Assembly (NCBI GenBank): GCA_021846285.1
Contig: JAJZCB010000007.1
Coordinates: 1 to 64,000 of the forward strand
Source of the DNA: Bacillota bacterium
GTDB lineage: Bacteria > Bacillota > Bacilli > Alicyclobacillales > SLC66
DNA: 64,000 nucleotides
Direction of reading: 5' to 3'
Of this stretch, positions 25,048-56,905 are shown piece by piece. Below the pieces are notes generated by a model. That model worked only from the letters and a program-made list of their open reading frames with translations. It was not told the DNA's origin and made no database searches. The stretch's first letter is position 1. Every line of letters starts with the position of its first letter. Both the position numbers and the translations under genes were made by a program.

Positions 25048-25133
25048 CGAGAGGACGAAAGAGACTCCATGACTCTATGCAATTCCTGTTTGCATTTTCA
25101 GACATCTTGTGATAGTATTATGAGAAAGAAAAA

Positions 25134-25205
25134 GGCAAACTCGTCGAAAGGCGGGGGCGCAAAGCTATAGGGGCTACAGCACATTGCCAAGCCAGCCAGT
25201 TGCCG
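25134..25205 (+). promoter_or_regulatory. Cyclic di-GMP-I (GEMM) riboswitch
   Basis: The segment begins GGCAAAC and ends with GTTGCC, which close the first stem. Inside are the GAAA tetraloop (TCGAAAGG), the invariant GGGGGCGCAAAGC turn, and a second arm with CCAAGCCAGCC that looks like the tetraloop receptor. These match the GEMM-I consensus in order and spacing. It lies 67 bases upstream of the coiled-coil protein start and is followed by a terminator hairpin, so it most likely controls transcription of that gene in response to c-di-GMP. Confidence 0.93.
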
Positions 25206-25227
25206 ATCGATACGATATCATTCGGCA

Positions 25228-52585: not shown

Positions 52586-52891
52586 TTACCGTTGGGACAG
52601 CCTCTTCTCCTCCTCGTACAAGCGCTCGATCACAAATTGCTTCAACAACGTCTGATACCCCTTGTGTTTTTTCTCGGCTAATTCTTGTAATCGATCGAGC
52701 GTGTCCACGTCCATACGAATCGTTATCGTCTTTGCATCAGTTCTCCTAGGTGGCATTTCAGACTCGTCCAATGGACGCGCGTGCGACAGAAAGTCTTCAG
52801 TTAGTTCATGAGTATCCCAATACTCGGCAGATTCTTTATCCGTCATGTGCTTCGGTATTTCATTAGGGTCATTGACAGGTTTCATATTCAT
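52586..52891 (-). CDS. brnA: BrnA-type antitoxin
   Basis: A 101-residue antitoxin. The N-terminal half, with MPPRRTDAKTITIRMD, resembles the BrnA domain, and the C-terminal half folds as a ribbon-helix-helix (DVDTLDRLQELAEKKHKGYQ). Its ATG overlaps the toxin stop (TAATG). It would neutralise BrnT and repress the operon through the palindrome at 53186-53207. Confidence 0.9.
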   Translation of the reverse strand: MNMKPVNDPNEIPKHMTDKESAEYWDTHELTEDFLSHARPLDESEMPPRRTDAKTITIRMDVDTLDRLQELAEKKHKGYQTLLKQFVIERLYEEEKRLSQR

Positions 52892-53160
52892 TAACGACTC
52901 CCCCTGCGAAATGCCTGTTTTTCTCTGTCATTTAAATCCCTGGCTGTAATTACACGATACATGCCATCCTGGATTACATAGACTACAAACAATAGTCGCC
53001 CATCTTCTGTACGTCCGACAATACCTTTTTTGCCCTTGTCATGTACATCAAATCCAACTCGTTCGGGATCTTTCATTGCTTCCTCGGCTTCATAAGGCAC
53101 CACGTCATGTCTTGATATGTGTTCTTCATTGTCTGCGTTCCAATCAAATTCACGTGGCAA
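52891..53160 (-). CDS. brnT: BrnT-type RNase toxin
   Basis: An approximately 90-residue ribonuclease toxin of the BrnT family: FDWNADNEEHISRHDV at the start, then EEAMKDPER, GRLLFVVYV and RVITARDLNDREKQAF. TTG 53160 is preferred because family members start just before FDWN and GGAGGTG lies upstream; ATG 53184 would add eight residues. It cleaves RNA to halt translation when BrnA is lost. The operator-promoter lies 25-45 bases upstream. Confidence 0.9.
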   Translation of the reverse strand: MPREFDWNADNEEHISRHDVVPYEAEEAMKDPERVGFDVHDKGKKGIVGRTEDGRLLFVVYVIQDGMYRVITARDLNDREKQAFRRGSR

Positions 53161-53185
53161 AGGCGCACCTCCGAGGTATGCCAAT

Positions 53186-53386: not shown

Positions 53387-55072
53387 TCATTGCCCCGAGA
53401 ACCGTAGTTGCAGCGCTGCTAACGCCACTTTTTCAATTCGCCGAAAAAGTGGCTCCGGTACGGTGAACCGCCTCCCTGGTTGGTATGAATACAAGTCGAA
53501 TTCGTCTTTCAACCACTCTTTACGCTCCCCGGCAGCCAGATCCAGCGCGTCAAAAACCTTCGCCGATGAAAAGGGGATTATGGGCTCGGCTGCAACAGCG
53601 AAGCATTTAATGAGATTGATTGCCGTGCGCAGGACCATGGCAGCTTCAGTACGGTCCGTCTTGACAAGGTTCCACGGAGCCCGCCGGTCGAGATACACAT
53701 TTCCGAGCGACCAGAGTTCGCGAAGCGCCTGAATGACCTTGCGAAACTCCAGGGTTACGAACTGGCTTCGATATGCCGCCAATACTCTCTGGCAATCCTC
53801 CTTCAGTTTTTCCTCCAGTTCTGACGGCGAACCGCCGTCGGGAACGCGATCACCAAACTGGGCAACTGTCAGTTTTAGCGTTCGATTGACGAAGTTCCCA
53901 AAGTTTCCGACCAAGTCTTTGTTCAGCATGGTGGCAAACAGATCCCAGGTAAAGCTGGCGTCATCCGTTTCAGGCGAGTTTGCCAGCAGGAAATACCTCC
54001 AGTAATCAGGATCAAACAACTCCAAAGCATCATCCAAAAAGATCCCGCGTTTTTGGCTGGTGGAAAATTTCCCGCCGTAATAAGTCAACCAGTTAAAGCT
54101 TTTAATCTGAGTTGCCATCGTCCATGGCTCGCGTGTTCCGAGAATCATCGCCGGGAAAAAGACCGTGTGGAACGGAACGTTATCTTTGGCCATGAATTGC
54201 GTATAAGTCACAGCAGAGGCGTTCAGCCACCAGTCTTTCCAGTCACGGCTGTCCGGGTCCCGGTCAGAGTACTCCTTTGTAGCTCCGATGTACCCAATTG
54301 GCGCATCAAACCACACATAAAACACCTTCTGCTCAAACCCGTCACGCGGAACGGATACGCCCCACTGGAGATCGCGCGTGATGCAGCGTTCATTCAACCC
54401 TTCGTCCAGCCACTTCATTGCGATAGACTTGGTCAGACGCGACCACTTTTCGTGGGATTCAACCCAGGTTCGTACCTGGTCGCCAAGCGCATCGAGTCTG
54501 AAAAACAGGTGTTTGGTCGTGCGTACTTCGAGTTCGGTGCTCCCGGAAACAGCTGATCGGGGGGCGAGTAAATCCACAGGATCGAGCACCGAAGTGCAAT
54601 TTTCGCATTGATCGCCCCTCGCCGCTTCATAGCCACATTTGGGACACGTGCCGATCACATACCGATCGGGTAGAAAGCGCTCGTCCTTTAAGGAATACAC
54701 CTGACGAATTGAACGTTCCTCAATATAACCGTTGGCGGCTAAACGTTCGAAGAAATGCTTGGTCAATTCATGATTCTGCAGTGAAGATGTCCTGCCAAAA
54801 TAGTCAAACGACAGTCCGAATTCCTGGTAGATGGACGCCTGTTTCTGATGCATGATGTTGCAATACTCCTGAACCGATAAATCCGTCTCAAGTGCTGACA
54901 ATTCTGCCGGTGTGCCATGTTCATCGGTTGCGCAGACGAATAAAACATCCTCACCCTCCAGTCTCAAGAAGCGAGCGTACGCATCTGCAGGAAGCAATGA
55001 GCCCGTAAGATTTCCAAGATGTTTAACACCATTAATGTAAGGCAGCGCACTGGTAATCAGAAACTTTGCCAT
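53387..55072 (-). CDS. metG: Methionyl-tRNA synthetase
   Basis: A 561-residue class I synthetase. The HIGH-type element is PYINGVKHLGNLTG, the zinc knuckle is CPKCGYEAARGDQCENC, and the KMSKS position reads KFSTSQKRG, as in the branch without classical KMSKS. It lacks the C-terminal dimerisation domain. It charges tRNA-Met and is essential. ATG 55072 is set by GAGGAGATGG upstream. A methionine-rich leader peptide and a terminator hairpin precede it, suggesting ribosome-mediated attenuation instead of a T-box. Confidence 0.93.
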   Translation of the reverse strand: MAKFLITSALPYINGVKHLGNLTGSLLPADAYARFLRLEGEDVLFVCATDEHGTPAELSALETDLSVQEYCNIMHQKQASIYQEFGLSFDYFGRTSSLQNHELTKHFFERLAANGYIEERSIRQVYSLKDERFLPDRYVIGTCPKCGYEAARGDQCENCTSVLDPVDLLAPRSAVSGSTELEVRTTKHLFFRLDALGDQVRTWVESHEKWSRLTKSIAMKWLDEGLNERCITRDLQWGVSVPRDGFEQKVFYVWFDAPIGYIGATKEYSDRDPDSRDWKDWWLNASAVTYTQFMAKDNVPFHTVFFPAMILGTREPWTMATQIKSFNWLTYYGGKFSTSQKRGIFLDDALELFDPDYWRYFLLANSPETDDASFTWDLFATMLNKDLVGNFGNFVNRTLKLTVAQFGDRVPDGGSPSELEEKLKEDCQRVLAAYRSQFVTLEFRKVIQALRELWSLGNVYLDRRAPWNLVKTDRTEAAMVLRTAINLIKCFAVAAEPIIPFSSAKVFDALDLAAGERKEWLKDEFDLYSYQPGRRFTVPEPLFRRIEKVALAALQLRFSGQ

Positions 55073-55113
55073 CTCGAACCATCTCCTCATCGTTTAATAA
55101 CCGGAGCAATAAA

Positions 55114-55145
55114 ACACGCCGCAGGCAAGTGTGCCCACGGCGTGT
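55114..55145 (-). terminator. Attenuator terminator in the metG leader
   Basis: On the minus strand, ACACGCCG and CGGCGTGT form the stem, with an inner GGCA-CACT-TGCC stem, followed by TTTTATT. It ends about 35 bases before the metG start and lies 20 bases after the leader-peptide stop, as expected for an attenuator. It might instead simply terminate the HIT gene transcript. Confidence 0.7.
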
Positions 55146-55165
55146 GTAAGGTCTCATTTGTCAGT

Positions 55166-55249
55166 CTATAGCGACTGCCATCGAGTCCTCAACCGCGAGC
55201 ATAAATGTGACATACGCATGGAACGCATCATCATTCGCATGTTCGTCAT
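55166..55249 (-). CDS. Methionine-rich leader peptide of metG
   Basis: A 27-residue frame starting MTNMRMMMRSMRM, with seven Met codons in the first 13 positions. AAAGGA lies about 11 bases before the ATG. The stop is embedded in a small hairpin (CAGTC-GCTATA-GACTG), followed by the terminator and then metG. The arrangement is that of classical attenuation: shortage of charged tRNA-Met would stall the ribosome on the Met codons and let transcription continue. It was found by reading the leader and has no family support. Confidence 0.7.
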   Translation of the reverse strand: MTNMRMMMRSMRMSHLCSRLRTRWQSL

Positions 55250-55337
55250 TCGTGCCCACGTCCTTTCCACAATGTTTTGCAATTGTTTGACAGTATATCA
55301 CTGAACATGGTGGACAGCAACCTGGTGGTAAACGGTG

Positions 55338-55709
55338 CTATTTGCGTCTATTGTCTTCTTGTTTAAGCCACCACCGAATTCCTCTGCCTGCAAAAGGTTC
55401 GTCATTGTAGCGGGGGATGACGTGTAGATGTGCATGAAAAATCTCCTGTCCTGCAACGGTTCCGTTATTCCAGCCGACGTTGTATCCGGCGGGGCTGTAT
55501 CGCTCGTCGAGTAAGCTTTTTACCTGTTGTAAAAGATAAAACGTGTCGCTCCACTCCTCCTTTCCCAAGTCAAAGACAGTCTCTCTGTGTGATCGTGGGA
55601 TGATAAGTCCGGAGCCAACGAGAATGGATTGTGGAATCTGTGTGAATATACAATATTTGCTTTCCAATACGATCTGACTCTTGTCGGGGTGACAAAACGG
55701 ACAATTCAT
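55338..55709 (-). CDS. HIT-family nucleotide hydrolase/transferase
   Basis: A 123-residue protein with the histidine triad HAHLHVIPRY at the end of the core, and CPFC at the start as in many bacterial HIT proteins. It belongs to the Fhit/HinT-like group that acts on nucleoside phosphoramidates or dinucleoside polyphosphates. It lies 90 bases upstream of the metG leader on the same strand. Confidence 0.88.
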   Translation of the reverse strand: MNCPFCHPDKSQIVLESKYCIFTQIPQSILVGSGLIIPRSHRETVFDLGKEEWSDTFYLLQQVKSLLDERYSPAGYNVGWNNGTVAGQEIFHAHLHVIPRYNDEPFAGRGIRWWLKQEDNRRK

Positions 55710-55931: not shown

Positions 55932-56774
55932 CTATGGGTTGGCGGCCGTCCGATTCCGTTCCATCCAATCGACGGCGAAGTCCACAAGCGCTCTCTGGCG
56001 CATGAGTCTGCACTCTGCGCCCGCGACGGCTCCGATTCGCACTGCCTCTGTCGCTCCTGCAACCGCCTCAAATGCTGTTCCGACTGCGCTAAAATCATCA
56101 GAGTCGTAATCGATGTCCGAGAATGTGACCCACTGCCGCTGTCCATTCACAAGAATGGGCGCGCCTGCCGTTATCGTCGTTTTCCCATGATAATGGGCCC
56201 GATATTCGGCCAGATGGATCGATGTATTGTTTTCGTGCGATACACCAAGCAGGAGAACCCAGGCGTCGAGACGGTATAGGGTTCCCAGCGGCGACGTTTC
56301 GCCGAGTCCGTTTGGCAACGCATGGTCGGCGGTCAGCGCGGCTGCATGTTTCCCCCAGACGGCGAATGACACCTGCGGATGCGCGCTGCGCAACACGCCG
56401 GGGGCTTTGCGGAAGCATTCCGCGATGGCGCCCATCTGTCGGGTCGGAGTGAAATCGGGATCGTATGGCGGCATCGTGCTTCGAATCGTCTCCCACCATG
56501 TCTCGGGCACGGGAGGTCTGCTCCAGCCGGCGGGATCCGACAGTTCGCTGGTCTGAGTCGGCATGACGAGCGTTCCATCTGTGGTAAGAACGCGCTGCAG
56601 CGCCTGGATGACGGCCACGGGTCCCCCACAGACCCAGCCGTCGAGCGATTTCATGGATGAGTGCACGATCAGGGTCATGCCTGGCTGGAGCCCGAGCGCC
56701 TGCAGATCACGCGTGAGCGAGTAAGTGGTGATCAGGCGTGTTGGATGCGGGGGCGTGTGCGTATCGTCTTGCAT
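55932..56774 (-). CDS. AAC(3)/YokD-family antibiotic acetyltransferase
   Basis: A 280-residue acetyl-CoA-dependent enzyme of the aminoglycoside 3-N-acetyltransferase family, recognised by VHSSMKSLDGWVCGGP, MPTQTSELSDP, HPQVSFAVWGK and the LLLGVSHENNTSIHLAEY segment with catalytic His. Many environmental members are not true resistance enzymes. ATG 56774 follows GGGAGG. Start region abuts the palindromic repeat copy B. Confidence 0.88.
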   Translation of the reverse strand: MQDDTHTPPHPTRLITTYSLTRDLQALGLQPGMTLIVHSSMKSLDGWVCGGPVAVIQALQRVLTTDGTLVMPTQTSELSDPAGWSRPPVPETWWETIRSTMPPYDPDFTPTRQMGAIAECFRKAPGVLRSAHPQVSFAVWGKHAAALTADHALPNGLGETSPLGTLYRLDAWVLLLGVSHENNTSIHLAEYRAHYHGKTTITAGAPILVNGQRQWVTFSDIDYDSDDFSAVGTAFEAVAGATEAVRIGAVAGAECRLMRQRALVDFAVDWMERNRTAANP

Positions 56775-56905
56775 TGTCTGGCCTCCCAGTTCCGGAACTC
56801 TGGTGTTCCGTTTCTTTTGTGCTCTTGCGTGACCGAACGACAAGCAGATGATCTACTGAATTGTATCACAGCGAACTCAGTTTCCATGATTTGCGGCGTT
56901 TCGAC

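Follow-up and report, generated by a model that had tools for sequence, protein, structure and literature searches.

A predicted methionine-codon attenuator ahead of a second, type-2 methionyl-tRNA synthetase gene in Bacillota

In Streptomyces coelicolor, the trpRS1 gene reportedly encodes an auxiliary, indolmycin-resistant tryptophanyl-tRNA synthetase (TrpRS) that is controlled by ribosome-mediated attenuation. Judged by analogy, it is the nearest functional analogue of the locus described here, in which a second, divergent synthetase gene likewise follows a leader peptide whose cognate codons are predicted to direct attenuation. Unlike trpRS1, the present system would read methionine instead of tryptophan and belongs to acid-loving Bacillota instead of Actinobacteria, and both the resistance of its methionyl-tRNA synthetase (MetRS) and its induction are putative.

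Other attenuators share this general plan. The pheST attenuators of gamma-proteobacteria and the trpS and leuS attenuators of Streptomyces combine a leader open reading frame (ORF) of cognate codons with an antiterminator and a terminator (PMC1262725), as does the present locus, but they differ from it in amino acid, phylum and sequence; moreover, region 3 of the RNA here repeats region 1, which precedes the leader start codon. The uORFC-8-2 motif upstream of cysS in Rhodobacterales (PMC8632094) is also a cognate-codon upstream ORF with predicted ribosome-mediated attenuation of a synthetase gene, yet it contains Cys codons, occurs in alpha-proteobacteria and is unrelated in sequence. Ribosome-mediated attenuation in Gram-positive bacteria is represented by the branched-chain amino acid leaders of Staphylococcus aureus and Listeria monocytogenes, which control biosynthesis operons and not synthetases (PMC6123439). 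In a survey from 2005, the synthetase genes of Firmicutes were mostly under T-box control and none under classical attenuation, while methionine was entered under S-box riboswitches (PMC1262725). The T-box (RF00230) resembles the predicted attenuator in that it senses whether the cognate tRNA is charged and acts on synthetase genes of Bacillota through termination, but it binds the tRNA directly, without translation. A Met-specific leader attenuator was not found in the open-licence literature.

The window, that is, the whole stretch of 64,000 nucleotides that was analysed, contains the locus on its minus strand, and its elements are collected in Table 1 together with the leaders of related genomes (G numbers). 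The leader ORF of 27 codons, read directly from an ATG at 55249 to a TAG stop at 55168-55166, sits between a predicted promoter and an intrinsic terminator, ahead of the MetRS gene. No other independent site on either strand of the window reaches seven Met codons among 13, the runners-up having five, and in 60 first-order Markov simulations of the window the count per 13 codons never exceeded five. The first-pass annotation, which had pointed to this Met-rich leader, was thus correct on the count, and its remark that the stop codon is set in a small hairpin also holds, since TAG lies in the loop of CAGTC...GACTG; this hairpin shows no obvious conservation among relatives. Within the leader Shine–Dalgarno sequence, AAGGACGTG matches AAGGAGGTG at 8 of 9 positions, and the leader folds better than its shuffled versions (z = -3.2). 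The ORF ahead of the regulated gene, its Shine–Dalgarno sequence, the Met run and the conservation described below together predict that the leader is translated.

Table 1. Elements of the attenuator locus in the window and leader peptides found upstream of MetRS2 genes in relatives
Feature	Position	Strand	Remarks
Promoter TTGCTG-17 bp-TATACT, TGA before -10	55292..55320	(-)	promoter-like, predicted
Leader Shine–Dalgarno GGAAAGGACGTG	55257..55268	(-)	kept in nearly all leaders
Region 1 CGTGGGCA	55253..55260	(-)	5' base of 1:2 hairpin
Leader peptide ORF MTNMRMMMRSMRMSHLCSRLRTRWQSL, then stop	55166..55249	(-)	Met codons kept, other codons vary
Control region	55211..55249	(-)	Met codons 1, 4, 6, 7, 8, 11, 13
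Region 2 TGCTCGCGG	55193..55201	(-)	encodes Cys-Ser-Arg; partner of region 1 or 3
Region 3 CCGTGGGCA	55132..55140	(-)	terminator 5' arm; antiterminator partner of region 2
Intrinsic terminator (3:4)	55106..55145	(-)	14-bp stem and U-rich tail
Type-2 methionyl-tRNA synthetase	53387..55072	(-)	RBS GAGGAG at 55088-55083
Leader of G002 MTNMQMMMRSMRMSHLCSRLRTRLQSL			upstream of MetRS2
Leader of G001 MMNMLMMMRSMRMSHLCSRLRTRLQSL			upstream of MetRS2
Leader of G014 MMDMRMMMDAMRMPCLCSRFRIRLFLM			upstream of MetRS2
Leader of G047 MMTMCMIMQSMRMSHVCSRSWIAYRM			upstream of MetRS2
Leader of G044 MANMQWMMRSMSMRLSCPRLEHRE			upstream of MetRS2
Leader of G035 MLHLPFAMPNLNDMRMCGMRMAFSCPRTRMRH			upstream of MetRS2
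Leader of Sulfobacillus harzensis MAMRMMMRYMDMSRVCSRFWVGLRSL			upstream of MetRS2
Leader of G468, one copy MAMRMMMRCMRTSGGCSRFRVGLRSL			upstream of MetRS2
Leader of G468, other copy MAMRVLMRRMRTSGVCSRFRIGLRSL			upstream of MetRS2; no Shine–Dalgarno

An overlapping GTG frame, VGTNDEHANDDAFHAYVTFMLAVEDSMAVAID, might instead encode the true small protein, with the Met codons as a by-product. This frame is open in the window, where it forms part of a listed 46-aa ORF, but early stops close it in G044 and G035, and its start lies nearly on the Shine–Dalgarno sequence, whose spacing fits the ATG. Such a protein is therefore scarcely credible, and the Met-rich frame is taken as the leader.

In the direction of transcription, a HIT-domain gene ends at 55338, before the promoter. 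The motif TTGnnn-17-TAnnnT is found equally far from the leader Shine–Dalgarno sequence in 11 of 12 leaders; as exceptions, the promoter is not the top-scoring one in G014 and is missing from the decayed second copy of G468. In the terminator, a stem of 14 pairs (55145-55114) closes a 4-nt loop and is followed by TTTATT, which confirms the terminator with T-run that had been read ahead of metG, and 34 nt separate its tail from the MetRS ATG (55072). No promoter was found in these 34 nt, where its presence would have spoken against attenuation; the conserved promoter precedes the leader.

Several other features were observed around the locus. A gene of the aminoglycoside 3-N-acetyltransferase family (PF02522, E 2e-93) lies close upstream at 55935-56843 (-), and a BrnT/BrnA-type toxin-antitoxin pair at 52586-53184 (-) lies directly downstream of MetRS2, in place of which G001 carries a different small gene. 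Elsewhere in the window, a c-di-GMP-I riboswitch is located at 25124-25207 (+; 75 bits).

The regulated gene had been read simply as metG. The position of the leader ahead of it stands, but the gene is one of two MetRS genes in this genome and, on its sequence, is a second, type-2 enzyme beside a type-1 MetRS. The ORF list places its start at 55090, whereas the alignment with relatives begins at the codon at 55072. Its best family is PRK00133 (577 bits, slightly below the cut-off of 587); among proteins of solved structure, the archaeal and human cytosolic MetRS are its best relatives. The other gene, on contig C21, belongs to PRK12267 (type 1), scoring well above the cut-off on a partial sequence whose 5' end is cut off by the contig end; thus, as in arrangements of the trpRS1 kind, a separate housekeeping enzyme is encoded in the same genome. 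The Met-site motif reads YVWFDAPIGY in the window MetRS versus YVWLDALTNY in that of C21, so that the former falls with the Gram-negative, archaeal and eukaryotic cytosolic group, in which Pro replaces the Leu of MetRS1. Near the inhibitor pocket, Leu is conserved only in MetRS1 and Pro in MetRS2, and MetRS1 inhibitors are poorly active on bacteria that make MetRS2 (PMC8165550); the Leu and Pro seen here are probably the equivalent residues. Streptococcus pneumoniae and Bacillus anthracis have two MetRS types (Gentry 2003 and Brown 2003, as cited in PMC8165550 and PMC4787780), and the present genome resembles them, at the level of sequence, in carrying a type-2 MetRS beside a type-1 enzyme. 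Close MetRS2 genes are patchy in the relatives searched: few are intact, those of G045, G057 and G035 are broken, and that of G041 is reduced.

The leader proved to belong to a conserved family and not to be the single case that the first-pass annotation had seen, although the attenuator itself had been recognised. Leader, promoter, Shine–Dalgarno sequence, terminator and all three pairings are kept in two congeners, one other genus of the family, several sister-family genomes and Sulfobacillus relatives. The leader precedes MetRS2 in 3/3 genus members, in G014, G047, G044 and G035 (where MetRS2 is broken), in Sulfobacillus harzensis and at both copies in its relative G468; in G041 it is partial. 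Its absence from near relatives, which would have told against the proposal, is thus not what was found, as it is kept in near and far relatives alike. The Met codons persist while most other codons change, with MetRS identity ranging from 95 down to 65% (72% for Sulfobacillus); even within the genus, codon 5 varies between Arg, Gln and Leu. In all eight leaders of the alignment (A4), TGC-YCR-CGG comes exactly three codons after the last Met, a spacing kept in G035 despite its longer leader; in the two leaders of G468, the last Met position is occupied by Thr.

In the protein tree, in which the locus L158 is disregarded because it was read on the wrong strand, the leader-bearing MetRS2 proteins fall into a single, well supported clade with ten members, of which G049 alone has no leader. 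This fits a single origin of the cassette with later transfer between classes, which the tree leads us to infer; inheritance of the cassette with one MetRS2 clade had escaped the earlier reading of metG. Counted against attenuation are the decayed leaders of G041, G045 and one G468 copy, together with the G049 MetRS2 that has none. Two loci illustrate such decay: G468 carries two MetRS2 copies (L153 and L154, on C41 and C88), each with a leader, one of them decayed, and a deletion in G041 (L008/L140, on C37) runs from inside the leader into the MetRS2 gene, so that the cassette appears caught while decaying. Nothing comparable to the Met-rich leader was found at MetRS relatives of Streptomyces, cyanobacteria and alpha-proteobacteria, and a sample of 398 genomes of the phylum, searched for such leaders and with the covariance model (R1), gave no further credible member; its best weak match, L146, was rejected because it falls within a coding gene.

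Three mutually exclusive pairings, 1:2, 2:3 and 3:4, with 3:4 as the terminator, were named by hand on the A4 alignment and on 11 sequences. Region 3 is a near repeat of region 1, so that both can pair with region 2, which lies inside the ORF. The eight pairs of 1:2 are preserved in 87 of 88 cells of the 11 sequences, and the 3:4 pairing has 14 pairs, with 94.6% of cells paired and two-sided changes in 5/14 pairs; the covariation score of both together was reached by none of 500 shuffles. The 2:3 pairing has nine pairs, with 93% of cells paired versus 35–52% when the regions are slid against each other. Most changes in 1:2 and 2:3 affect one side of a pair (G-C/G-U), and region 2 has a coding role as well, so that the support for 2:3 is one of conserved complementarity and not of double changes; shuffles score as well for its covariation, which gives no proof proper. 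The alternative pairing that had been anticipated is hence present and conserved across relatives.

The same pairings bear on a different explanation, in which translation of the leader would merely keep the RNA open for constitutive partial read-through and the Met runs would be selected through CAU/AUG pairing. AUG triplets do join the imperfect 1:2 stem, but the Met codons have stayed in frame and at a constant distance from region 2 while the intervening codons differ, and the codons adjacent to them are not kept, which makes this explanation very unlikely.

Seven leaders were folded with a 31-nt ribosome mask moved codon by codon, on transcripts truncated directly downstream of region 3. 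When the A-site was placed on the early Met codons or on the last one, 2:3 was dominant in most leaders. At the last Met codon it formed at 0.66–0.77 and was lost one codon further on in six of the seven, making the last Met the switch codon (13, 13, 13, 13, 21 and 12); in G014, it was lost one codon before the last Met. In this model, a stall would thus free region 2 and passage would mask it, with G014 one codon off. Folded without a ribosome, 1:2 dominated in five of the seven leaders. In the window and in G001, the equilibrium before region 4 favours 2:3 (P12 0.01–0.12), so that termination requires either that 1:2 form first or that a ribosome cover region 2; this preference is the weak point of the model. 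Additionally, mid-leader stalls in several leaders, most of all in G035, permit 1:2 to form across the modelled ribosome, a pairing that may be sterically impossible.

Taken with the conserved leader, these alternative pairings support, as a prediction, the earlier proposal of stalling at Met codons: the second MetRS is very probably controlled by a ribosome-mediated transcription attenuator. With charged Met-tRNA present, the ribosome would pass the last Met codon and either cover region 2 or let 1:2 form; in both cases, 3:4 would form and transcription would stop before the gene. If elongator Met-tRNA were short, the ribosome would stall on the Met codons, which belong to the 5' half of the 1:2 hairpin; region 2 would then be free to pair with region 3 ahead of the synthesis of region 4, and RNA polymerase would read on. 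Given the type-1 MetRS of the same genome, the signal in nature would be failure of that enzyme, through methionine shortage or a MetRS1 inhibitor. A backup role of MetRS2 against failure or inhibition of MetRS1 is plausible, on balance somewhat favoured, and by analogy with S. coelicolor trpRS1 the trigger is possibly an antibiotic that targets MetRS1. A further point counts against attenuation: initiation needs Met-tRNA as well, and under very severe starvation translation of the leader should also fall.

A missed riboswitch sensing tRNA or a metabolite (T-box or SAM), with the ORF incidental, would be favoured by the T-boxes that are present at the type-1 metG loci of the close relatives G044, G047 and G049 (with an ATG triplet at the apparent specifier position in G044 and G047) and at remote MetRS2 genes, namely 10 of 16 other MetRS2 loci of Bacillota (three at 63–67% identity, the rest at 32–39%). 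The locus in the window and its homologues, however, gave no match to T-box, SAM or any other Rfam family even at a permissive threshold, in agreement with the first reading that no T-box consensus is seen; neither the locus nor its homologues show a specifier stem-loop or a T-box antiterminator, while the genome of the window has 17 T-box matches elsewhere. Moreover, the leader is about 160 nt long, largely coding and free of a T-box consensus, so that a hidden riboswitch is extremely improbable. None of the 16 other MetRS2 loci has a Met-rich leader (0/16). Since T-boxes occupy many of the other MetRS2 loci and the type-1 metG loci of some relatives, and the sample of the phylum gave no further credible leader, the predicted attenuator appears to take the usual place of a T-box in a single MetRS2 clade. 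The design had been called unusual for this phylum, and for synthetases that is right (PMC1262725).

A homologous cassette was also found at a transporter gene. The covariance model matched G057 at C1:1267243 (E 9e-17), upstream of an MFS gene of the H+ antiporter/macrolide-efflux type (TIGR00900 subfamily, with a score below the cut-off); the cassette (L139 1501-1656, that is, C1:1267243-1267398) has the same regions 1, 2 and 3 and the same promoter as the MetRS2 cassette, with the leader MMQVLQSMQMLQARQCPCIVCSRLRT, and only fragments of MetRS2 are left in this genome. Genes other than MetRS2 may thus also be driven by the cassette. Among the occurrences of the region-1 motif found before other genes, only this one is accompanied by region 2. 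In addition, weak model matches precede another MFS transporter in G053, G050 and G057 (L141, L142 and L145, the last at C3:56203-56352); their leader ORFs, MRISHKSRAQQTFDTYSSALTTRMRRQH and MRTVIHVAGHTELYTQNVLPGLIG, are followed by terminators and are candidate attenuators of a different specificity.

The efflux gene raises the question of whether the cassette is an antibiotic attenuator of the erm/hflXr kind, in which a drug-bound ribosome stalls on a nascent peptide of the Arg-Leu-Arg type and not on Met codons. Besides the related cassette ahead of the G057 efflux gene, the window leader does contain RLR (CSRLRTR), a signature of macrolide leaders (PMC6310831). Most leaders, however, have no RLR (CSRFRIR, CSRSWIA, CPRLEHR, CSRFWVG), the conserved feature is the Met codons, and RLR comes after region 2, where a stall would, in the model, mask that region and favour termination. 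A drug-sensing attenuator is thus unlikely, and Met-codon stalling is retained as the preferred reading.

A broader proposal is tentative, and more doubtful than probable: the cassette may be a portable module that senses inhibition of MetRS and drives resistance functions, mostly through MetRS2 and in G057 through an MFS efflux pump. If so, natural MetRS-targeting antibiotics would exist in acidic habitats, and the cassette would be the first leader-peptide attenuator to read methionine, the amino acid on which initiation depends; as methionine is also needed for initiation, a non-monotonic response would be expected.

The synthetase genes of Bacillota are textbook T-box ground, and one MetRS2 clade appears to use leader-peptide attenuation instead. 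Methionine is an odd choice for such attenuation, as starting the leader also needs Met-tRNA, and the predictions that follow are sharp and testable. If inhibition of MetRS1 is the trigger, the finding would suggest that MetRS inhibitors occur in nature and that resistance can be induced by a route of relevance to drugs directed at MetRS.
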